DNA of 64,000 bases from Streptomyces sp. NBC_00335. Its GTDB lineage: Bacteria; Actinomycetota; Actinomycetes; Streptomycetales; Streptomycetaceae. The notes beneath the pieces are model-generated. The model did not search any database. It was not told where the DNA came from and saw only the letters and a list, made by a program, of their open reading frames with translations. The position numbers and the translations under genes are program-made. Positions 14,114 through 23,582 of this stretch are shown piece after piece (positions within the stretch are counted from its first letter, which is position 1; each line of letters opens with the position of its first letter). Location: the NCBI RefSeq assembly GCF_036127095.1, contig NZ_CP108006.1:868001-932000 (forward strand), written 5' to 3'.

Positions 14114-14629
14114 TCACTCACCCCAGGCGAGCGCCGCTTCGATGCTGTCGGCGACGTGGAACAGGGCGCGGGCTTGCGTGAGTTCGAGTACTCGTTCCAG
14201 GGATGTGGGCAGAGGGCCGATGAGGACCAGGCGGCTGTTGCGCCGGAGGCGGAACATTTCGTTGAGCATGGAGGAGTCGGCGAAGGTGACGCGGCTGACG
14301 TCCAGGATGATGCGTCGGATGTTCGGATCGGTGATGGCTGCGGTGCCGGCCTCTTGAACGGCCTGCAGGGTCCGCTGGTCGAATTCACCGGCGCAGACGA
14401 TGACGCGTGCCCCGTCGTTGCGGTCCGGGAGGGCCAGGACCTGCTGCGCTCCTGGTGATTTCTCATGGGCGTCGGGCCTGGGGCCGCTGCTGGCGAGGAG
14501 TCCGGCCTGGTTCAGTTCGTGGACGATGATCCAGGCGAGGTCGTCGGGGTTCGGGGCGTCGGGGGGAACCGCGGCGAGGTAGGCAGCAATTCTGGTTGCG
14601 ACTAGTTTTGCTGTTCCTGCATCACTCAT
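14114..14629 (-). CDS. STAS-domain anti-sigma factor antagonist (171 aa)
   Basis: Residues about 70-165 form a STAS domain: ARVIVCAGEFDQRTLQAVQE, IILDVSRVTFADSSMLNEMF with the S-S-M-L loop that carries the phosphorylatable serine, and LVLIGPLPTSLERVLELTQA. An extra N-terminal segment of about 65 residues is predicted helical. Such proteins free sigma factors by binding HATPase anti-sigma factors when unphosphorylated. It is immediately downstream of a HATPase gene with an 8-nt overlap, so the two probably form a switch pair. Confidence 0.85.
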   Translation of the reverse strand: MSDAGTAKLVATRIAAYLAAVPPDAPNPDDLAWIIVHELNQAGLLASSGPRPDAHEKSPGAQQVLALPDRNDGARVIVCAGEFDQRTLQAVQEAGTAAITDPNIRRIILDVSRVTFADSSMLNEMFRLRRNSRLVLIGPLPTSLERVLELTQARALFHVADSIEAALAWGE

Positions 14630-15128
14630 GCGTGCCTGTCTGCTGCTCTTCGGCTGTCCCGAACGCCCTGCGGAGTTGGGGCTGGTGATGGTGTGACGTC
14701 GCGTCCGTGCTCTTCAGACGCTGGGTGGTGGTGATGGTCTTCCCACCGCCTGGGAGGGGGGTGATGTCGACGCGTTCGGTGAGGAGCTGGATGAGGGGCC
14801 ATCCGTAGCCGCCGGGGCGGCCATGGGCCGTGGGGTGGGACCAGGGGTGGTCAGGGCTGGCGTCGCTGGCGGCCAGGTGGAGGACGTCCCCGGTGATGAC
14901 TGCGTGAAAGTGGGTGATGCCGCCGCCGTGGCGGATGGCATTGGTCACCAGTTCCGAGGTGACCAGGAGCGCGTCTGCGGCAGGAACGCTGTCGGGGCTG
15001 ATGCCCGCGCGCGCGAGGAGCTCGGCGACCCGGTGGCGGGCGGAAGCCGCCGTGGCAACAGCCGACCGGGCACCGTTCCTGGTGTGCTCCGGACGGGGGG
15101 TGTTGTCGGCTGTCGCAGGCGCGTTCAT
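14622..15128 (-). CDS. HATPase_c_2 anti-sigma regulatory kinase (RsbW-like, 168 aa)
   Basis: The GHKL ATP site is visible: N box LLVTSELVTNAIRHGGG (E-x3-N), then DASPDHPWSHPTAHGRPGGYGWPLIQLL with the glycine-rich lid. This class of serine kinase binds a sigma factor and phosphorylates a STAS antagonist. It lacks any sensor domain. Its end overlaps the STAS gene. The sigma target is not encoded next to it; the nearest SigB-family gene is at 37.8 kb. Confidence 0.85.
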   Translation of the reverse strand: MNAPATADNTPRPEHTRNGARSAVATAASARHRVAELLARAGISPDSVPAADALLVTSELVTNAIRHGGGITHFHAVITGDVLHLAASDASPDHPWSHPTAHGRPGGYGWPLIQLLTERVDITPLPGGGKTITTTQRLKSTDATSHHHQPQLRRAFGTAEEQQTGTHE

Positions 15129-15221
15129 GCCTTCATCGCCTGCCCTTGATGGTGGAGGTCATGCGCCGCACTGATCCGGTCCGGCTGCCGGTGCCGGCAG
15201 CCGGTGCCGGCAGCCAGCATG

Positions 15222-15330
15222 TCATTGCGTCCTCCACGCTGTCCGCCCATCGGCATACGGGCCGAGACCGGTGAGCTGGAAGAAACGGCGGACCCCGCGT
15301 TGCAGCGGGCCTGCCAGGACGAGCGTAGTT
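15222..15330 (-). pseudogene. C-terminal fragment of a STAS protein
   Basis: The frame reads RGTTLVLAGPLQRGVRRFFQ then LTGLGPYADGRTAWRTQ and TGA. L-V-L-x-G-P-L-x-x-x-V-x-R-x-x-x-L-T-G is the last strand and helix of STAS antagonists. A stop lies just upstream, so the front half is missing. A different frame (MATAPPAAPSRTLDTVPPDL) precedes it, suggesting a fusion of two broken pieces. Confidence 0.5.
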
Positions 15331-15501
15331 CCTCGGCGGTACGGGCGCGGGCGAGGTCAGGGGGAACTGTGTCGAGGGTGCGGGACGGCGCGGCGGGGGG
15401 CGCGGTTGCCATGGCGATGGATATGGAGGATGGTTGCCGGAAGGCAATTAATCTTCTTCCAGACTATGAGGTGAGGGGTTCGCACAGCGGGCCTCAACGA
15501 T

Positions 15502-17157
15502 TTGGTGATTCCCACCCAGGAAGCGGCCCCTTCGGTGCGCGCGCCGTGGAGTGAGGCCCCCTACCCCGTGCTTGTGGCAGATGACCAGGGAACCCTGCTG
15601 CTGGTCAACGAGGTTGCCGGTCTGCTTTTCCCTCAGGCCCGCGCGGGGACGCCGATCGCGGACACTGTGCCCGCGTGGCTGTCCGAAGCCCACACCCGCC
15701 GTCTTGCCCCAACACGTACCCGGCCTTCGGCCGCTGAAGCCGGCGCCCTGGTGCAGGGCCCGGTCGGCGACCGTTCGTATGAAGCGCATCCGACGTGCCC
15801 CGGTGACGGGACGGTGGTGTGGTGGCTCGTCGACGACACCGACCACCGCCTGGCCCGCGAGGCCCTGCGGATGGAGCGCAAGCGCACCGCCTTCCTGGGG
15901 GAGGCCTCGAATGTGCTGCTGTCCTCGCTGAATCTGGAGCGGTGCATGGACGTCACCGCCCAGATGGCCGCGGAGCACCTGGCCGACGCAACCGTGGTCA
16001 TCGCACCCTCACGCGGCCGTGAACTGCCCATCGTGTCCTGCGTGCGCGGCGGGATGCCGGTGGCGTCGAGGGTTGCCGCGCACCCCGAGGCCGTACCGGG
16101 GCTGGCGGAAGCGCTGCAGGGGTTCCCGCCCGTCCCGTCGCGCTGGATCGATCCTGCCACCGCCCCGGCATGGCTGGTCCCCGAGGAGTTCGGCACGGTG
16201 GGTTCGGTAGTGATCACACCGCTGCCCGGCCACGGCGTCCCCGCGGGAGCGCTGGTCCTGCTGCGCCGCTCGGGCGGCAGCGGATTCACCGAGGGCGAGG
16301 AGGTGTTCGCCCGCCTCTTCGCCGCCCGGGCGGGCGCCGCCATGTCGGCCGCGCGCCTGTATGCGGAGCAGGCGTCGATCAGCGAGACGCTGATGCGCGA
16401 ACTGCTCCCGCCGTCCCTGCATCAGGTGGCGGGGGTCGAGTACGCGGGCGGCTACCGGCCCTCCCTGGACCATGAGCGGATCGGTGGCGACTTCTACGAC
16501 GTCCACCCCGCCGCCGTGGCGGGTGACGCGTCGCTGGTCGTCCTCGGCGACGTATGCGGCAAGGGTCTGGAAGCCGCCGTGATGACGGGAAAGATCCGGA
16601 ACACCCTGCACGCCCTGCTGCCCATGGCCGATGACCACCCGCGGATGCTGAACCTGCTGAACACCGCGCTGCTGAGCACGCACAACGCGCGCTTCGCGAC
16701 CCTGGTCCTGGCCTCCGCGGTCCGCGAGGGCGGCTCCGTCAAGCTGCGGCTGACCAGCGCCGGCCATCCCCCTCCGCTGATCCTGCGCGCCGACGGAACC
16801 GTCGAGGAAACCGCGACCTACGGCACGCTGGTCGGAGCGCTGCCGGCCGTGACCGCCGAGACGGCGGAAGTGACGCTCGCCCCGGGCGAGACGTGCGTGC
16901 TCTACACCGACGGGATCACCGAGGCTCGAGGCGGACCGCTCGGCGGGGCCATGTTCGGAGACGCGCGGCTCCAGCGAGTGCTTGCGGAGTGCGCGGGGAT
17001 GCCCGCTGAAGCGGTGGTGGAGCGCGTGCAGATGCTCGCTTCCGAATGGGTCGGCACCGGCCGTCACGACGACATGGCCGTCGTTGCGATCTCCGCGCCC
17101 CGAACCAACCACCTCAGTGCCGTAGACGGGCACACGAGGGGCAGGTTCACAGCGTGA
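15502..17157 (+). CDS. SpoIIE-type PP2C phosphatase with PAS and GAF domains (551 aa)
   Basis: The N-terminus (about 18-115) reads as a PAS domain (YPVLVADDQGTLLLVNEVAG). A GAF domain spans about 145-285. The PP2C/SpoIIE domain occupies about 295-535 with metal-site motifs RIGGDFYD, VLGDVCGKGLEAA, SAGHPPPLIL, LYTDGITEARG and GRHDDMAVVAI. It would dephosphorylate STAS antagonists in response to a signal sensed by PAS/GAF. The GTG at 15502 starts the frame. Its stop overlaps the GTG of the cobalamin-binding gene, so the two are translationally coupled. Confidence 0.9.
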   Translation: MVIPTQEAAPSVRAPWSEAPYPVLVADDQGTLLLVNEVAGLLFPQARAGTPIADTVPAWLSEAHTRRLAPTRTRPSAAEAGALVQGPVGDRSYEAHPTCPGDGTVVWWLVDDTDHRLAREALRMERKRTAFLGEASNVLLSSLNLERCMDVTAQMAAEHLADATVVIAPSRGRELPIVSCVRGGMPVASRVAAHPEAVPGLAEALQGFPPVPSRWIDPATAPAWLVPEEFGTVGSVVITPLPGHGVPAGALVLLRRSGGSGFTEGEEVFARLFAARAGAAMSAARLYAEQASISETLMRELLPPSLHQVAGVEYAGGYRPSLDHERIGGDFYDVHPAAVAGDASLVVLGDVCGKGLEAAVMTGKIRNTLHALLPMADDHPRMLNLLNTALLSTHNARFATLVLASAVREGGSVKLRLTSAGHPPPLILRADGTVEETATYGTLVGALPAVTAETAEVTLAPGETCVLYTDGITEARGGPLGGAMFGDARLQRVLAECAGMPAEAVVERVQMLASEWVGTGRHDDMAVVAISAPRTNHLSAVDGHTRGRFTA

Positions 17158-18227
17158 TAGGAAACGCGACAAGCACGGAACCTCTGGCCGCACGGCTTTG
17201 GGACGCGGCCCTGGCCGGCGACGAGCAGGCCGCGGTCACCGCGGTCCGCCAGGCCCTGGAGGACGGAGCCAAACCTCAGGATGTCTTCTTGAACGTGATC
17301 GCCCGGGTGCAGGGCCGCGTCGGGGAGCAATGGGCCGCCAATCGGATCAACGTCGCGCAGGAGCACGCCGCGACCGCGATCAACGAGCGGGCCGTAGCCG
17401 TCGTCGCCGAGCATCCTGCCGCCCGTACGAAGCCGTCGCGCGGGCGGGTCGTGGTGGCGTGCGTGGACGGGGAGTGGCACGGGCTGCCGGCCCGGCTCGT
17501 AGCCGAGGTCCTCAAGCTGCGGGGCTGGCAGGTGGACTACCTGGGCGCCCACGTCCCGACCCCTCATCTCGTCGCGCACATCCACCGCACCGGGCCGGAC
17601 GTCGTCGCCCTGTCCAGTTCGATCCCCACCCGGCTGCCCACCGCGCACGCCACGATCACCGCGTGTCAGGCGGCCGGGGCCCCGGTTCTCGTGGGGGGAG
17701 CCGCGTTCGGCCCGGACGGCGAGTACGCCCGCCTGCTCGGCGCGGACGCTTGGACGCCGGACGCCCGCTCGGCCGCCGACCTTCTCGAGCGCGGGCCGCT
17801 GCCGCGTCCGCGGCCCGACCACCAGCCCATCGATGACCTGCCGCACCTGGCCGACCAGGAGTACACCCTCGTCACCCGCAGCCGCCCCCAGCTCGTACGG
17901 ACGGTCCTGACCGCCCTGGAGAACAGATTTCCGGCGATGCGCGGCTACGACGAGGCGCAGCGGGAACGCACGGCAGAGGACTTGGCTCACATCGTCGATT
18001 TCCTCGGTGCCGCCCTCTACACCGGCGACGCCGAGCTCTTCTCCCGCTTCCTGCTGTGGACCGCGGGCATCCTCGAAGCCCGCGGCGTCCCCGCGCAGAG
18101 CCTGCCGCCGGCGCTGGACGTACTCGCAGGTGAGCTGAAGGACTTCCCCCGCGCCACCGGCATGCTGCGCCTCGCCATCACGCGCCTGACCAGTACCCCT
18201 CTGACCGTTGGCGGAGCCGCCGAATGA
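17154..18227 (+). CDS. Cobalamin-binding sensor-like protein with CarH-type motif (357 aa)
   Basis: Residues about 10-90 form the helical cap with W60, then nine residues, then E70-H71: the W-x9-E-H motif of CarH/LitR-type adenosylcobalamin light sensors. Residues about 97-220 are a B12-binding Rossmann domain with VDGEWHGLPARLVAEVLKLR (H109 as the expected cobalt ligand), LSSSIP and VLVGGAAFGP. The DNA-binding MerR part of CarH is absent. A helical C-terminal domain (about 240-355, VDFLGAALYTGDAELFSRFL) recalls sensory domains of RsbR-type proteins. The gene overlaps a phosphatase upstream and a STAS gene downstream by 4 nt each, so the cobalamin signal probably feeds partner switching. Confidence 0.8.
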   Translation: MIGNATSTEPLAARLWDAALAGDEQAAVTAVRQALEDGAKPQDVFLNVIARVQGRVGEQWAANRINVAQEHAATAINERAVAVVAEHPAARTKPSRGRVVVACVDGEWHGLPARLVAEVLKLRGWQVDYLGAHVPTPHLVAHIHRTGPDVVALSSSIPTRLPTAHATITACQAAGAPVLVGGAAFGPDGEYARLLGADAWTPDARSAADLLERGPLPRPRPDHQPIDDLPHLADQEYTLVTRSRPQLVRTVLTALENRFPAMRGYDEAQRERTAEDLAHIVDFLGAALYTGDAELFSRFLLWTAGILEARGVPAQSLPPALDVLAGELKDFPRATGMLRLAITRLTSTPLTVGGAAE

Positions 18228-18652
18228 TCCCCGTACCCGGGCCGCTGCGCCTCACCCGCACCGATACGGCCGGCGCCGTGCGCATCGAGCTGCACGGCGA
18301 CTTCGACTACCAGGATGCCGACCGCCTCCTGGATGCCGTCACCGAAGTCCTGGCCTGCCCGGGCGGGCTGCGTGATCTGCACCTGGACTGCACAGACATG
18401 GCCGGCGTCGACTCCAGCGGGCTGTCGGTCCTGCTGATGATCCGCCGGCGCACGGACGCCGCGGGCGTACGCTTGCACCTGGAGGGGCGGCCGCCGGCGC
18501 TGGAGCGGATACTGCAGGTCACCGGCACCCTCAACTACCTCACCAGCGCACACACCGGCAACGCGTCGGCGGCCCCGCCGGCCGAGAGAGCGTCCACCGC
18601 CACGCAGGAAGCCATAAAGTCCCGCTCCAGCGGGCAGGACCCCAGCACTTGA
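18224..18652 (+). CDS. STAS-domain antagonist (142 aa)
   Basis: The STAS fold reads RIELHGDFDYQDADRLLDAV, LHLDCTDMAGVDSSGLSVLL (D-S-S-G-L loop with candidate phospho-serines) and LERILQVTG. The last 30 residues are a Ser/Thr/Ala-rich tail. The ATG overlaps the stop of the cobalamin-protein gene. Together with SpoIIE and the B12 protein it forms a three-gene coupled operon; it is the likely substrate of that phosphatase. Confidence 0.87.
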   Translation: MIPVPGPLRLTRTDTAGAVRIELHGDFDYQDADRLLDAVTEVLACPGGLRDLHLDCTDMAGVDSSGLSVLLMIRRRTDAAGVRLHLEGRPPALERILQVTGTLNYLTSAHTGNASAAPPAERASTATQEAIKSRSSGQDPST

Positions 18653-18693
18653 CCGGCACCGGCGGGCGGGCCGCTCGCACGGAGGGAATGCAC

Positions 18694-19185
18694 ATGTCCG
18701 TACCGGCCTTCGGGCCCAGCAGTATCGACCCGGACACCGCGCGCTCGGTCAGCGACATCGCCGAACTCCTCGACGTCGTCTACGAGAACGCCCGCCAAGC
18801 CGCTACGGCTTCATCGGTCTCCACAACGCAGCTGCGCCTGATGTTCCTCCTCGACCGCCAGCCCGGGATCCGCATGAGCGCCCTGGCCCAGCTCCTCGGC
18901 GCCGCAGCCCCCTCCGTAACCCGGCTCTGCGACCGGCTGGAGGCCACCGGATTCCTACGCCGCCACCCCGGCCCCGGCGACGGCCGCGAGCTCACCCCCC
19001 GGCTCACCCCAGCCGGTGAGCACCACCTCGCCCAGATACGAGAAAAGCGCCAGCAGACACTCGCCCAGGCCCTCGACACCATGAGCGCCGATACCCGGCA
19101 GGCACTCGCCACAGGACTCGCAGCACTCCAGCTGGGCATCACCACGACCGCCGGATCCCCCCAGCAGGACGGCCCCGCCGCCTGA
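18694..19185 (+). CDS. MarR-family transcriptional regulator (163 aa)
   Basis: The winged-helix core is QLRLMFLLDRQPGIRMSALA, QLLGAAAPSVTRLCDRLEAT and GFLRRHPGPGDGRELTPRLT, typical of MarR. The GGAGGG ribosome site stands 7 nt before the ATG at 18694; an ATG at 18688 is too close to it. It follows the STAS gene by 41 nt and is probably transcribed with it. The ligand and targets are unknown. Confidence 0.85.
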   Translation: MSVPAFGPSSIDPDTARSVSDIAELLDVVYENARQAATASSVSTTQLRLMFLLDRQPGIRMSALAQLLGAAAPSVTRLCDRLEATGFLRRHPGPGDGRELTPRLTPAGEHHLAQIREKRQQTLAQALDTMSADTRQALATGLAALQLGITTTAGSPQQDGPAA

Positions 19186-19482
19186 GACCGTGAACGCCAT
19201 CCTCGCCCGGTAGCTCCGCCGGCGAAGCCGCCCGGGCGGCGAACCGAGCCGTTCGACGTGCGCCCCGCGGCAACAGGTCAGCCGGATGACCGGTGCGCTC
19301 CCCGGCCGCACCGGCCCGGGAACGCTCGGCCGACGACCGAACTACCGAGCCAACCGCGCTGCCTGCCCACCAGTTCCTGAAGCCTCGTGATGCAATGAGG
19401 CCTGTCCGATGCCGCCTCCGGGCGGATCCTCGCGCATCCGGGACAAGGCCCCGGGGCGGCATCGAGTGGTAAAGGGGTCGCC

Positions 19483-20799
19483 GTGAGCGCAGGAGAACCA
19501 GACAGCGACCGGGGGTCCGGCCCTGACGCGGGCGGAAGCCGCCGGGGTAAGGCGATGACATTGGCGGGCGCGTTGGAGGCTGCTGAGGCCGCCGCGCCCG
19601 TGGAGTCGCTGGACGTCGTGGCGCGCATGCTCAAGGACCACCTCCAGGCGGCATCGGTGTCGTTCCTGATCACCGACTTCACCGGCAGTTCCGTCGTACG
19701 GCTGGGAACCGCCGACAGCATCGACACCGACGAGCCGCCCCAGCGGATACTGCTGCGCGACACCTTGTACGAAGAGGTCATCCGCACCCAGCAGCCGCAG
19801 GTCGAACACCGGGGCGAGGGCCGGCACGTCCGCGTGATCGCCCCGGTGACCAACCGGGGAGACGCCATCGGGCTCCTCGAACTGTTCCTGCCCACCGTTC
19901 CGGACGCGGAGGTGATGCGGGAGGTCGGCGAGGCCGCACACGCGTTGGCGTACATCGTCATCGCAAACCGGTCCCACACCGATGTGTACCAGTGGGGCCG
20001 GCGCACCAAGCCGCTGAGCCTGGCAGCCGAGATCCAGCACCGCCTGCTCCCCGCGTCCCTGGCGTGCGAGGCGGCGCAGTTCGCGGTCGCCGGGGCGCTG
20101 GAGCCCGCCGAACACGTCGGGGGCGACACCTTCGACTACGTCATCGACCGGGACACCGTCCAGCTCTCCGTCACCGATGCCATGGGCCACGACGTCGACG
20201 CCGCGCTGCTCGCCACCCTGGTGGTGGGCGCCCTGCGACGGGCCCGGCGGGAGGGCGCCGACCTCGCCGACCAGGCCCGCCAAGCCGACCAGGCCATGCG
20301 CGAACACGGCCGCAGCGGCTTCGTCACCGGTCAGCTGCTGCGCATCAGCCTCCTCGACGGCGGGACCGAGTTCGTCAACGCCGGGCACCCCTGGCCACTG
20401 CGGATGCGCGACGGAAAGGTCGAGGAGATCGTTCCGAAGGTCGACCGGGCGTTCGGCCTCAACATCCATCCCTCACAGCCCAACACCTACCAGGTGCAGA
20501 CCTTGGACCTGCGGCCCGGCGACCGGCTGATCATGCTGACCGACGGCATGCTGGAGCGCGACGCCGAGAGCCTCGACCTCTCGGACCTGATCATCCGCAC
20601 CCGCGAACTACATCCCCGCGAAGCCGCCCGTACGCTCATCAAAGCGGTCGTCGAGGCGGTCAACGGCCACCTCGACGACGACGCGACCGTTATGTGCCTG
20701 GACTGGCACGGCGTCCACCACTCCGAACGTGACGCCGCCCACGGCGCTGACGTCACCGACGCCTCGCCACCTGCGACAACGGGACCGCCCGCTCCCTAG
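19483..20799 (+). CDS. SpoIIE-type PP2C phosphatase with GAF-like domain (438 aa)
   Basis: After a charged start, [20 protein letters not shown] begins a GAF-like sensor region (about 44-165). The phosphatase domain (about 185-410) carries [60 protein letters not shown] and [11 protein letters not shown]. It should reverse STAS phosphorylation. The GTG at 19483 follows AAAGGGG. A broken relative is present near 26.7 kb. It faces a HATPase and a STAS gene on the other strand that could be its switch partners. Confidence 0.87.
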
Positions 20800-20948
20800 T
20801 CCTGTGGCCGAGTACGGCCGACAAGGCTGGACCGGTGGCTTTCCCGGCATTCCCGGACTCCTTGCGGCCCGGGGCGGTCAGAAGCAGCTCCGCGACCGGC
20901 TGAAGCGCTGCCGCACCCGTGCGGCAAGGGCGATCCTGGCCGACATCG

Positions 20949-21416
20949 TCAGGGGAGGCGTCCGGCCGGGTCCCCGCCGGGGTCGTCGGCCAGTCCTATC
21001 GTGACCTTCACTCGCTTGCCCACGGGCTCGCGCCGCACCTCGAAACTGCGGCACACCGCCATCGCGATCTCCAGGCCGTGCTGCCCGATCCGACTCGGAT
21101 CGGCCGGGCTCACCGCGGGCAGCTGCGCGTCGGTATCCCACACGCTGATCTCCACGACACCGGCGCCGACCTCCAGCTCCAGCAGACACGGGCCGGGCGC
21201 GTACTTGTAGGCGTTGGTCACCAGCTCACTGACGACCAGCTCCACCATGCTCATCGCACGGTCCGACACCGGAATCCCGTGAACACCCTGCACCGCGGTC
21301 ATGAAACCGCGGGCAGCACGCCTGGCCCCAGCGATCGGTTCGCTGCCGTCCAAGGCCATGGCCGACACGATCGGACCGCCGACTAGCAACTCACCTTGGT
21401 GCACCACAGCAGCCAT
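20949..21416 (-). CDS. HATPase_c_2 anti-sigma kinase (155 aa)
   Basis: The N box is MVELVVSELVTNAYKYAPGP and the later part reads EISVWDTDAQLPAVSPADPS then IGQHGLEIAMAVCRSFEVRR, the GHKL lid of RsbW-like proteins. The G1 aspartate D-T-D is present. It should bind ATP and either a sigma factor or a STAS protein. The ATG at 21416 is preceded by GAGGGTGG. It lies downstream of the STAS gene at 21.7-22.0 kb on the same strand but with a gap of about 260 nt. Confidence 0.83.
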   Translation of the reverse strand: MAAVVHQGELLVGGPIVSAMALDGSEPIAGARRAARGFMTAVQGVHGIPVSDRAMSMVELVVSELVTNAYKYAPGPCLLELEVGAGVVEISVWDTDAQLPAVSPADPSRIGQHGLEIAMAVCRSFEVRREPVGKRVKVTIGLADDPGGDPAGRLP

Positions 21417-21680
21417 ACCGCCACCCTCGTCCTGAGCAAGCCACACGGCCGCTTCCAGCCGGTTACCCCGAAACAGGAGCCATACACGAGAGCACAGAAC
21501 AAAAATTCGAGCGCCCCGAGCGAAGCCGCTCCGAACCACAGGCCCCGCCGCTCCCGGGCGTGACGCGAACGCTGCGGACAGACAGCCTGCGCGCAGTTCC
21601 AGGGCAGGTGTGACGGATGTGTTGACGAGGGCTTTCAGGGGGCCTCCGGGAAGCGTGCGCGGGTCCTGCCGCGCTCTGCC

Positions 21681-22013
21681 CTACAGGATGCGGGCCGCCT
21701 CGACACCCTCTGCGGTCGGGAACAGGGCGGTAGTCCCGGTGAGGTCCAGCAGTCGCCCCATGCGAGGCGGCACGGGGCCGACCAGAACCAGGCGGCCAGT
21801 GCGCCGCACGCGCAGCATGAGGTTGAGCATCGCGGAGTCGGCGAAGGTCACGCCGGTGACGTCCAGGACGACCCGACGGACAGCATGATCATCCACAGAC
21901 GCCACACAGGCTGCTTCGAGGGGTCCAAGAGAGTCCTGGTCGAACTCGCCTGCGCACACGATGACGCGGACGCCGTCCTTGTCAGACAGCACCTGTACCT
22001 GCTGTTCCACCAT
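21681..22013 (-). CDS. STAS-domain antagonist (110 aa)
   Basis: This is a compact STAS domain: VRVIVCAGEFDQDSLGPLEA, VVLDVTGVTFADSAMLNLML (loop S-A-M-L with a serine), LVLVGPVPPRMGRLLDLTGT. It is closest in pattern to the STAS protein at 14.1 kb. The ATG at 22013 or the TTG three bases earlier starts the frame, behind GGGGAG. Confidence 0.85.
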   Translation of the reverse strand: MVEQQVQVLSDKDGVRVIVCAGEFDQDSLGPLEAACVASVDDHAVRRVVLDVTGVTFADSAMLNLMLRVRRTGRLVLVGPVPPRMGRLLDLTGTTALFPTAEGVEAARIL

Positions 22014-22589
22014 CAACTCCCCAACTCAGCCCGCGGTGCGCTCTCGCACCGCCTCCCCTTCTCTACCCACGACACAACCTCAACCAGAACGCTCCGCCAA
22101 TCCGAAACACGACCTTCGCCTTGCATGGACGGCCACGGCCCGCCAGCACCGCGCGTCACACCATCCCGGTCGATGGGACGAGCTGCTCCGCGAGCCGCCG
22201 GACCCCATCAGGCGGGCGCACCGGAGAGCACGGAGGGGCCCTGGCGCCGATGGCACCGGGGCCCCGAAGGAACTGACTACACCATCCACCGGCCCTGGTG
22301 CTGCGCCGGCCCACTATGTCCACACACCCGACTCACGAGCTGCCGGGCCCTACTGTCTCTCCGGACTACGAGAGAAACCATAACCACGCCACAGTCCAAT
22401 GTCTACTTCAGCCAACACAGATTTTCAGATGCCCGTCACAGAGGTAATCGGGCGTCGTTAGGTTCAACAGCCGCGGGCCCGGGGACAACGCCCGGACAGG
22501 CAGGACCCACCACCACGACGGACTGCTTCCCAACCAGAGGCCGGTCCGGCACCGCGGTCGATATGCGTTCGCCGGGGTAGGCGCCCGGC
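22014..22589 (+). other. Gene-poor stretch with one half of a diverged inverted repeat
   Basis: A perfect-looking hairpin (22235-22248 with 22252-22265, GGGGCCCTGG...) begins a block to about 22440 that matches, in reverse orientation, pieces of 25.48-26.18 kb. The block ends with ACTACGAGAGAAACCATAAC and a tiny frame MSTSANTDFQMP. No intact gene is present. Confidence 0.55.
22235..22440 (+). repeat. Diverged inverted repeat, copy A
   Basis: The hairpin 22235-22265 and the following CGAAGGAACT...CCGACTCA match the reverse complement of about 26085-26183. The segment 22345-22440 (CTACGAGAGAAACCATAAC and ATGTCTACTTCAGCC) matches the reverse complement of about 25485-25570. About 500 nt lying between these parts in the other copy are missing here. 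Confidence 0.6.
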
Positions 22590-23582
22590 ATGAAGAAGCC
22601 GACGGAAGACTCCGAGGACCTGCTCGCCGGGTTGAGCGTGGACAACAGCCGCCCGGAGGAACCGGTGCTGCTCGACGCGGGCGGCGCGCCGATCCGGACC
22701 TGGCGTGAGAACTACCCCTACGACCGCAAGATCCGCCGGGCGGAGTACGAGCGGGCCAAGCGGATCCTGCAGATCGAACTGCTCAAACTGCAGAGCTGGG
22801 TGAGGGCGACCGGTTCCAGGGTGGTGGTCATCTGCGAGGGCCGGGACGCCGCCGGGAAAGGTGGCACGATCCAGCGGTTCACCGAGCGGCTCAATCCCCG
22901 CGGGGCGCGCGTCGTGGCCTTGGACAAGCCCACCGAGCGAGAGGCCGGCCAGTGGTACTTCCAGCGCTACACCGCCCACCTGCCCGCCCCGGGGGAGATC
23001 GTCTTCTTCGACCGGTCCTGGTACAACCGCGCCGGCGTCGAGAAGGTCATGGGCTTCTGCTCCGACGACCAGTACAAGCTGTTCCTGCGGCAGTGCCCGG
23101 CCTTCGAGGCCATGCTCGTCCAGGACGGCATCCTGCTGGTCAAGTTCTGGTTCTCCGTCTCCCGCGCCGAACAGCGCACCCGCTTCGCGATCCGCCGGGT
23201 CGACCCGGTACGACAGTGGAAGCTGTCCCCCACCGACCTTGCCTCGCTTGACCTGTGGGACGCCTACACCACCGCCAAGGTCGACATGTTCCGGGCCACC
23301 GACACCGACCACGCGCCCTGGACCGTGGTCAAGAGCAACGACAAGCGACGGGCCCGGCTGGAAGCGATCCGCAGCCTTCTCGACCGCATCGACTACGACC
23401 GCAAGGACACCACGGCGGTCGGCCGTCCCGACCCCCGGATCGTCGGCGCCGCCGACACGCTCCTGGAAGCCGGCGAGGAACCCGCCGACCTCACACCCAC
23501 CCCGCTGGCCGGCACGCCCCGAGGACCCGGCAGGCACCCACACCACCCTCTGCCCGCCGACTGCGCTCGGGGAGGAGCATGA
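22590..23582 (+). CDS. ppk2: Polyphosphate kinase 2 (PPK2) family protein (330 aa)
   Basis: The Walker A region is VVICEGRDAAGKGGTIQRFT (about residues 78-97) and the Walker B-like block is EIVFFDRSWYNRAGVEKVMG (about 137-156), followed by the lid arginines in RRVDPVRQWKLSPTDLASLD. This is a class I PPK2 that phosphorylates nucleoside diphosphates with polyphosphate, or the reverse. The last 40 residues are a Pro/His-rich tail. The gene follows the repeat block and stands alone. Confidence 0.92.
   Translation: MKKPTEDSEDLLAGLSVDNSRPEEPVLLDAGGAPIRTWRENYPYDRKIRRAEYERAKRILQIELLKLQSWVRATGSRVVVICEGRDAAGKGGTIQRFTERLNPRGARVVALDKPTEREAGQWYFQRYTAHLPAPGEIVFFDRSWYNRAGVEKVMGFCSDDQYKLFLRQCPAFEAMLVQDGILLVKFWFSVSRAEQRTRFAIRRVDPVRQWKLSPTDLASLDLWDAYTTAKVDMFRATDTDHAPWTVVKSNDKRRARLEAIRSLLDRIDYDRKDTTAVGRPDPRIVGAADTLLEAGEEPADLTPTPLAGTPRGPGRHPHHPLPADCARGGA

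Follow-up and report, generated by a model that had tools for sequence, protein, structure and literature searches.

A conserved actinomycete operon joins a predicted standalone photocobilin to a SpoIIE-type phosphatase and a STAS protein

What does a cobalamin (B12)-binding protein act upon when it has the marks of a light sensor and no DNA-binding domain, and when its gene lies between those for a SpoIIE-type phosphatase and a STAS antagonist? This question is raised by a 64,000-nucleotide stretch (hereafter the window; contig NZ_CP108006.1, positions 868,001 to 932,000) that forms part of the 9.0 Mb genome of Streptomyces sp. NBC_00335. The original prediction for this DNA was that a CarH-like protein conveys light or adenosylcobalamin signals to anti-sigma switching rather than to a DNA-binding repressor. 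The analysis reported here indicates that the protein is probably a standalone photocobilin and that the phosphatase is its most constant genetic partner. The genes form a plus-strand run of four at 15502–19185, whose features are as follows.

15502..17157, + strand: PAS-GAF-helix-PPM (SpoIIE/RsbU-type) serine phosphatase (PF07228, 149 bits), the probable direct target of the photocobilin
17134..17145, + strand: probable Shine-Dalgarno sequence for the photocobilin gene, inside the last codons of the phosphatase gene (T-R-G-R: ACG AGG GGC AGG)
17154..18227, + strand: standalone photocobilin (predicted), with a four-helix cap and Rossmann B12 domain (residues ~9–215) and a bilin-binding globin (residues ~230–349)
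18224..18652, + strand: STAS anti-anti-sigma protein (PF13466, E = 3.3e-15), the probable phosphatase substrate
18649..19185, + strand: MarR-type regulator (PF01047, E = 1.1e-13), the probable fourth gene of the operon

The phosphatase and photocobilin genes share 4 nucleotides (17154–17157), as do the photocobilin and STAS genes (18224–18227), which confirms the overlaps originally noted at both junctions. Note that "overlap" here denotes a start codon in the overlapping place, the start itself being predicted. The MarR-type gene, next after STAS on that strand and previously missed, could begin at TTG 18649, with a 4-nucleotide overlap with the STAS gene, or at ATG 18688 or 18694 near a GGAGGG sequence.

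Results

The B12-binding protein is probably a standalone photocobilin

The best match of the 17154–18227 protein is a photocobilin (E = 1.5e-86), non-photocobilin entries reaching 2e-20 or worse, and those of its 120 best listed homologues that carry a name all come from Streptomyces. Its B12 light-sensing module comprises the four-helix cap and Rossmann domain with W60, E70-H71, and E107-W108-H109 (motifs W-x9/10-EH and E/DxH), and the residues W60, E70-H71, and H109 are thus present as first described. Pfam likewise finds no DNA-binding domain. The assumed kinship with CarH gives way, since the closest solved relative is the photocobilin SasPcob, including its biliverdin-binding globin; the corresponding bilin-type globin domain of the window protein had been overlooked. 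A CarH-type repressor is rejected on the lack of a Pfam DNA-binding match and on the extra globin. The match to model NF052513 covers only model positions 77–262 of 274 and scores 64 bits against a cut-off of 400.

SasPcob is described, in the part of the published account considered here, as binding adenosylcobalamin and biliverdin, responding to green and red light, and changing from dimer to monomer, and its equivalents of the W, E, and H residues secure the light-labile adenosyl group and make the connection to the second chain (PMC10979010). We scanned a collection of species genomes, obtained 397 confirmed relatives of the window protein, and used the 80 most similar, which with the window give 81 sequences. 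W60, E70, and H71 are invariant in all 81, and so are D276, W302, and H138, the counterparts of the SasPcob bilin contacts Asp270, Trp296, and trans His137. A second set of 40 loci comprised 20 of the 24 matches from one scan and 20 of the 77 from another, the latter picked towards the divergent end. These 40 sequences, one of which (L154) is cut short, all retain the four B12 residues (W, E, H, and the axial H); the bilin Asp is found in 34, the bilin Trp in 31, and the trans His in 25. In L121, L124, L126, and L140 the bilin Asp is replaced by Ala, Thr, Thr, and Phe, respectively; each of these sensors lies beside a SpoIIE gene, keeps all four B12 residues, and is possibly a B12-only version. 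These residues suggest a constant core of B12 photochemistry and a bilin function that some branches have given up, in agreement with AbPcob as presented in the same portion of PMC10979010.

A heme oxygenase encoded in the same genome is a candidate source of biliverdin (PF01126, E = 5.5e-68; 1.8e-68 for the protein). A second, weaker match to the heme oxygenase family lies at G000:C1:3149519-3150082 (L011, E = 1.7e-19). The 17154–18227 protein is therefore best described as a probable standalone photocobilin, predicted to bind adenosylcobalamin and, probably, biliverdin.

The phosphatase gene is the most constant neighbor

The 80 loci fall into nine genus groups: 52 are from Streptomyces, 10 from Amycolatopsis, 8 from Mycobacterium/Mycolicibacterium, 3 from Saccharothrix, 2 each from Actinacidiphila and Actinomadura, and 1 each from Streptantibioticus, Nocardioides, and Pseudonocardia. 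Counting the window, a SpoIIE frame stands directly upstream of the sensor gene in 80 of 81 loci (the exception is L082; the frame is in pieces in L039 and short in L086), and a 4-nucleotide overlap is possible in 78. A STAS gene lies downstream of the sensor in 75 of 81, with a possible 4-nucleotide overlap in 70, and both overlaps are possible in those 70. The MarR-type gene is downstream in 30 of the 80 (28 Streptomyces, 1 Actinacidiphila, and 1 Streptantibioticus; 31 of 81 counting the window), and as a fourth gene it is confined among these loci to Streptomyces and close relatives. The neighbor profiles behind these counts were built from the window proteins, and diverged STAS, HATPase, and MarR genes can escape them. 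Because the phosphatase gene adjoins the sensor in 80 loci, as against 75 for STAS and 31 for MarR, we conclude that the phosphatase is the most constant partner and that STAS is less fixed.

The second set extends this pattern within the class, where SpoIIE adjoins the sensor in 28 of 28 loci, down to 37% identity. Among the class members at 37–48% identity the phosphatase is present in 10 of 10, and a downstream STAS gene was seen in 1 of 10 (L115). The order SpoIIE–B12–STAS is thus kept elsewhere, with both overlaps possible in most loci, and the failure of conservation that could have overturned the original prediction is not what we find. Because 4-nucleotide overlaps are common in actinobacteria, the weight of this evidence rests on their conservation.

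The genes bear signs of coupled production

The phosphatase gene of the window ends ACG AGG GGC AGG TTC ACA GCG TGA. At the Arg codon four before the stop (17143–17145 in the window), 63 of 75 phosphatase genes use AGG, which makes up 3.6% of the Arg codons elsewhere in them; this count covers 75 of the 80 genes, five of unusual length having been dropped. The embedded AGG is probably the Shine-Dalgarno sequence for the GTG start of the photocobilin gene, and this codon choice is nucleotide-level evidence of coupled production.

The three proteins have also diverged together. Over the 71 of 81 operons in which all three are present and the phosphatase is of usual length, their pairwise protein distances correlate with r of 0.82–0.85 (0.85 for sensor and phosphatase), and the best of 200 permutations gave 0.16. 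STAS evolves fastest, with a mean identity of 45% in the same operons, compared with 67% and 64% for the other two.

Sensor and phosphatase genes mostly occur together

Among 199 genomes of the genus, both genes are found in 62, the sensor only in 6, the phosphatase only in 1, and neither in 130. Shared descent among the species means that the tiny Fisher value for this co-occurrence cannot be read as a true probability. A sensor match is found within 1 kb of 69 of the 73 phosphatase matches. Eight of the 77 sensor matches have no listed phosphatase within that distance; six of these have a more diverged SpoIIE adjoining, one (G457) has a partial sensor alongside SpoIIE pieces in two frames, and the sequence stretch of the eighth (G410:C37) was left out of the comparison. 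With conserved order, co-occurrence, the AGG codon, and close positions in hand, we rejected the notion that these genes are accidental neighbors.

Four phosphatase matches have no sensor match. At three of them (L158, L160, and L161) a STAS gene comes next with no sensor match between, and at L159 broken remains of both the sensor and STAS lie in different frames. Loss of the sensor, or its absence from the start, would explain all four. Under either account the sensor acts like an optional input joined to a phosphatase–STAS pair.

Features of the phosphatase, STAS, and MarR-type proteins

The predicted structure of the phosphatase contains a PAS-like part (~23–111), a GAF-like part (145–256), a 38-residue helix (264–301), and a PPM domain (310–531), and so agrees with the PAS-GAF architecture originally assigned. 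Pfam gives this assignment less support: no PAS domain is detected in the window protein and GAF appears only below the cut-off (E = 0.003), and among 53 of the 80 orthologues GAF is found in 34, PAS in one, and PAS_4 in one. The PAS and GAF names are our own assignment, made from the secondary structure and the GAF match. In an alignment of the same 53 orthologues, G328-G329-D330-F-Y-D333, G349-D350-V351, D470-G471, and H522-D523-D524 are invariant, and we take these acidic motifs to be the conserved motifs of the PPM domain.

The STAS protein carries the sequence D63-S64-S-G, with D63 kept in 74 of 75 proteins, S64 in 72 of 75, and G66 in 75 of 75; Ser64 is presumably the phospho-acceptor. 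The MarR-type regulator may be an output of the operon. Light-induced carotenoids of Corynebacterium glutamicum are reported to be under the control of a MarR-type regulator (PMC6739363).

Neighboring genes and other systems of the genome

The STAS/HATPase pairs that had been placed on both flanks, and the second phosphatase, were all recovered.

14114..14629, − strand: divergent STAS protein (PF01740, E = 3.3e-7), accessory, of non-conserved position
14622..15128, − strand: divergent HATPase_c_2 protein, RsbW/RsbA-like kinase (PF13581, E = 1.2e-9), a candidate anti-sigma factor
19483..20799, + strand: second SpoIIE-type phosphatase (PF07228, E = 1.6e-37)
20949..21539, − strand: HATPase_c_2 protein (PF13581, E = 2.6e-8), a candidate anti-sigma factor
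21681..22016, − strand: STAS protein (PF13466, E = 1.1e-10)

Phosphatase, STAS, and HATPase genes are thus all in the window. Relatives of the second phosphatase occur in 22 loci including the window, in varying places, and the HATPase genes near the operon vary in both place and presence. A polyphosphate kinase 2 gene lies just to the right of the cluster (22590–23582; PF03976, E = 7.1e-101), and several further STAS/HATPase profile matches are spread over 24823–52846. A phage or viral origin of the cluster was rejected, there being no PHROG match.

Across the genome there are 35 SpoIIE matches and 72 HATPase_c_2 matches (56 over the family cut-off), a large repertoire of phosphatase/kinase switches. 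Elsewhere (L155, G000:C1 ~7521850–7525566), Pfam identifies a LitR/CarH-like gene (MerR plus B12-binding) that lies downstream of one for a DNA photolyase; the LitR/CarH-like gene is tail to tail with a gene for a sigma-70-family (ECF-like) sigma factor and scores below the NF052513 cut-off. Because this locus and the photocobilin operon share one genome, the organism probably owns two separate B12 light systems.

Discussion

A light-controlled phosphatase is the favored reading

We consider it fairly probable, by analogy with known systems, that adenosylcobalamin is cleaved by light, that this leads the photocobilin to alter how active its phosphatase is, and that STAS is the protein on which the phosphatase acts, with anti-sigma switching to follow. 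In the dark the photocobilin would form a head-to-tail dimer, as expected from its homology with SasPcob. Green light through B12, or red light through the bilin and passed on, would break the Co–C bond, move the helix bearing E70-H71, and turn the dimer into monomers. One of the light states would bind the PAS-GAF-PPM phosphatase, with the long helix joining GAF and PPM as the likeliest contact, and so alter PPM dimerization and activity in an RsbT/RsbU-like manner. The phosphatase would set the phosphorylation of STAS at Ser64, freeing or capturing an anti-sigma kinase. We infer the light-dependent binding, the change in phosphatase activity, the dephosphorylation at Ser64, and the anti-sigma switching from such analogy.

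The partner-switching part of this scheme is supported because an Amycolatopsis locus (L035) carries a STAS–HATPase pair, checked with Pfam, and then SpoIIE–photocobilin–STAS on one strand, and because in a few other loci (L063, L133, L147, and L150) a HATPase gene comes after the operon in the same orientation. An input of light or adenosylcobalamin to anti-sigma switching, and not to a repressor, stands as the best reading; the parts of the original proposal that fall are its nearest kin, which is SasPcob, and its novelty.

Several observations weigh against this reading. None of the 12 photocobilin loci that belong to other classes of the phylum (L116–L120, L122, L123, L125, and L127–L130), some of whose stretches are short, showed a SpoIIE neighbor, and because of this the photocobilin–SpoIIE link, judged from gene order, belongs to one branch. 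Neither gene is present in 130 of the 199 genomes, and the sensor is dispensable, in that four of the 73 phosphatase loci have no intact one alongside. Bilin use appears not to be needed for pairing with SpoIIE because three same-class sensors and L140, from the genus, adjoin SpoIIE and have no bilin Asp. The modeled PAS- and GAF-like domains of the phosphatase may alone control it. The four-gene run of the window includes no anti-sigma kinase gene, and the window-derived profiles detect no HATPase near the operon in the 8 Mycobacterium/Mycolicibacterium and 3 Saccharothrix loci. Finally, shared inheritance of an operon speaks for joint expression and not for physical contact. No linked sigma factor was identified near the operon, though no search was aimed at sigma factors, and no SpoIIE–photocobilin fusion was noticed, though fusions were not searched for.

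Alternative explanations

The most serious alternative, which we regard as unlikely, is that the photocobilin acts on STAS, the MarR-type regulator, or another protein, the phosphatase being only co-expressed and sensing through its own PAS-GAF part. The frequent possible overlap between the photocobilin and STAS genes, the MarR gene that follows in 30 of 80 loci, and the PAS- and GAF-like folds of the predicted phosphatase structure are consistent with this view, but the near-invariant neighbor is the phosphatase, and the class members of lowest identity keep it where a downstream STAS gene is seldom seen.

It is less probable still that the sensor reads adenosylcobalamin, as a measure of B12 status, or redox, with photolysis incidental. 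Adenosylcobalamin binding does put the activity of a photocobilin-fused cyclase below the apo level, as stated in the part of PMC10979010 considered here. Set against this are the invariance of W60, E70, and H71 in the 81 sequences and of W, E, H, and the axial H in the further 40, and that of the bilin Asp and Trp in the 81, which would be needless in a pure B12 sensor, although both are less well kept in the further set. The idea of a methyltransferase corrinoid carrier (MtaC/MtbC-like) or MetH fragment with no signaling role, to which weak matches to NCBIfam corrinoid proteins (all below cut-off) and the source label "methanogenic corrinoid protein MtbC1" on one listed relative might point, has a negligible chance of being correct and is refuted as far as sequence can refute it by the far better photocobilin match, the bilin-type globin, and the SpoIIE-type signaling gene adjoining nearly all same-class relatives examined.

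Scope and significance

Returning to the light-controlled phosphatase, we offer more tentatively, and with slightly less than even confidence, the generalization that, in this branch, actinomycete photocobilins serve PPM phosphatases as dedicated subunits switchable by light, acting in trans by gripping the helical linker, in the manner of RsbT or RsbQ with a photolabile vitamin as the switch. If this is true, light across most of the visible spectrum would reach anti-sigma partner switching by a route separate from the genome's LitR-like locus. B12/bilin photosensing would be joined to protein dephosphorylation and anti-sigma switching, and a natural light-controlled phosphatase would be at hand. 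The operon names the likeliest target of a standalone photocobilin, the phosphatase, together with an adjacent substrate, and the question becomes one of a short reconstitution.

Comparison with known systems

The photocobilin family and the suggested STAS/SpoIIE link are already published. A gene-neighborhood paper on photoglobins (Schneider et al. 2022) may already list the operon. What the present work contributes is a direct view of how the operon is laid out, the evidence that its phosphatase is the most constant partner, the ribosome-site signal inside the end of that gene, the loci without an intact sensor, and a survey of sensor residues. The wiring had been thought not to be established, but Zhang et al. 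2024 had already named STAS, SpoIIE, and PP2C-type phosphatases as potential partners of SasPcob, on the basis of neighborhood and interaction networks, while calling the function of standalone photocobilins "less clear" (PMC10979010). Literature searches that paired B12 or light with SpoIIE/STAS led to that paper, and no experiment on the link was found in the literature searched, most subscription papers lying outside its reach.

SasPcob (Saccharothrix syringae, PDB 8J2W/8J2X) is likewise a standalone B12 and bilin-globin protein; it shares 51% identity over 320 residues and the same fold over 330 residues with the window protein, and seven contact residues taken from its paper are identical. 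What differs is that operon order, overlaps, and conservation are read directly here, the window system being known from its genes alone. SasPcob in trans alters the activity of a diguanylate cyclase, according to the portion of PMC10979010 cited here. AbDPcob (8J2Y), a photocobilin–GGDEF fusion, differs in its 31% identity and its fused cyclase, and it is given in that portion as having His in place of the bilin Asp, which is D276 in the window protein (PMC10979010). CarH and LitR differ in that the window protein has no MerR DNA-binding domain and has an extra globin; its output is presumably a protein contact.

Two Bacillus subtilis pairs, RsbT–RsbU and RsbQ–RsbP, follow a single scheme. 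As in the present system, a separately encoded partner protein controls a PPM phosphatase, which carries a helical linker and an N-terminal sensory region and feeds a STAS antagonist. RsbT is reported to switch RsbU by driving its flexible linkers into a coiled coil, and the same work predicts an RsbU-like build for PAS and GAF phosphatases (PMC12143880). The difference from both pairs is that the partner here is a predicted photocobilin and the phosphatase a PAS-GAF-PPM protein. YtvA of B. subtilis, a LOV-STAS protein, also provides a light input to anti-sigma partner switching; there a flavin-binding LOV domain is fused to STAS in the stressosome, whereas here B12 and bilin would act on the phosphatase.

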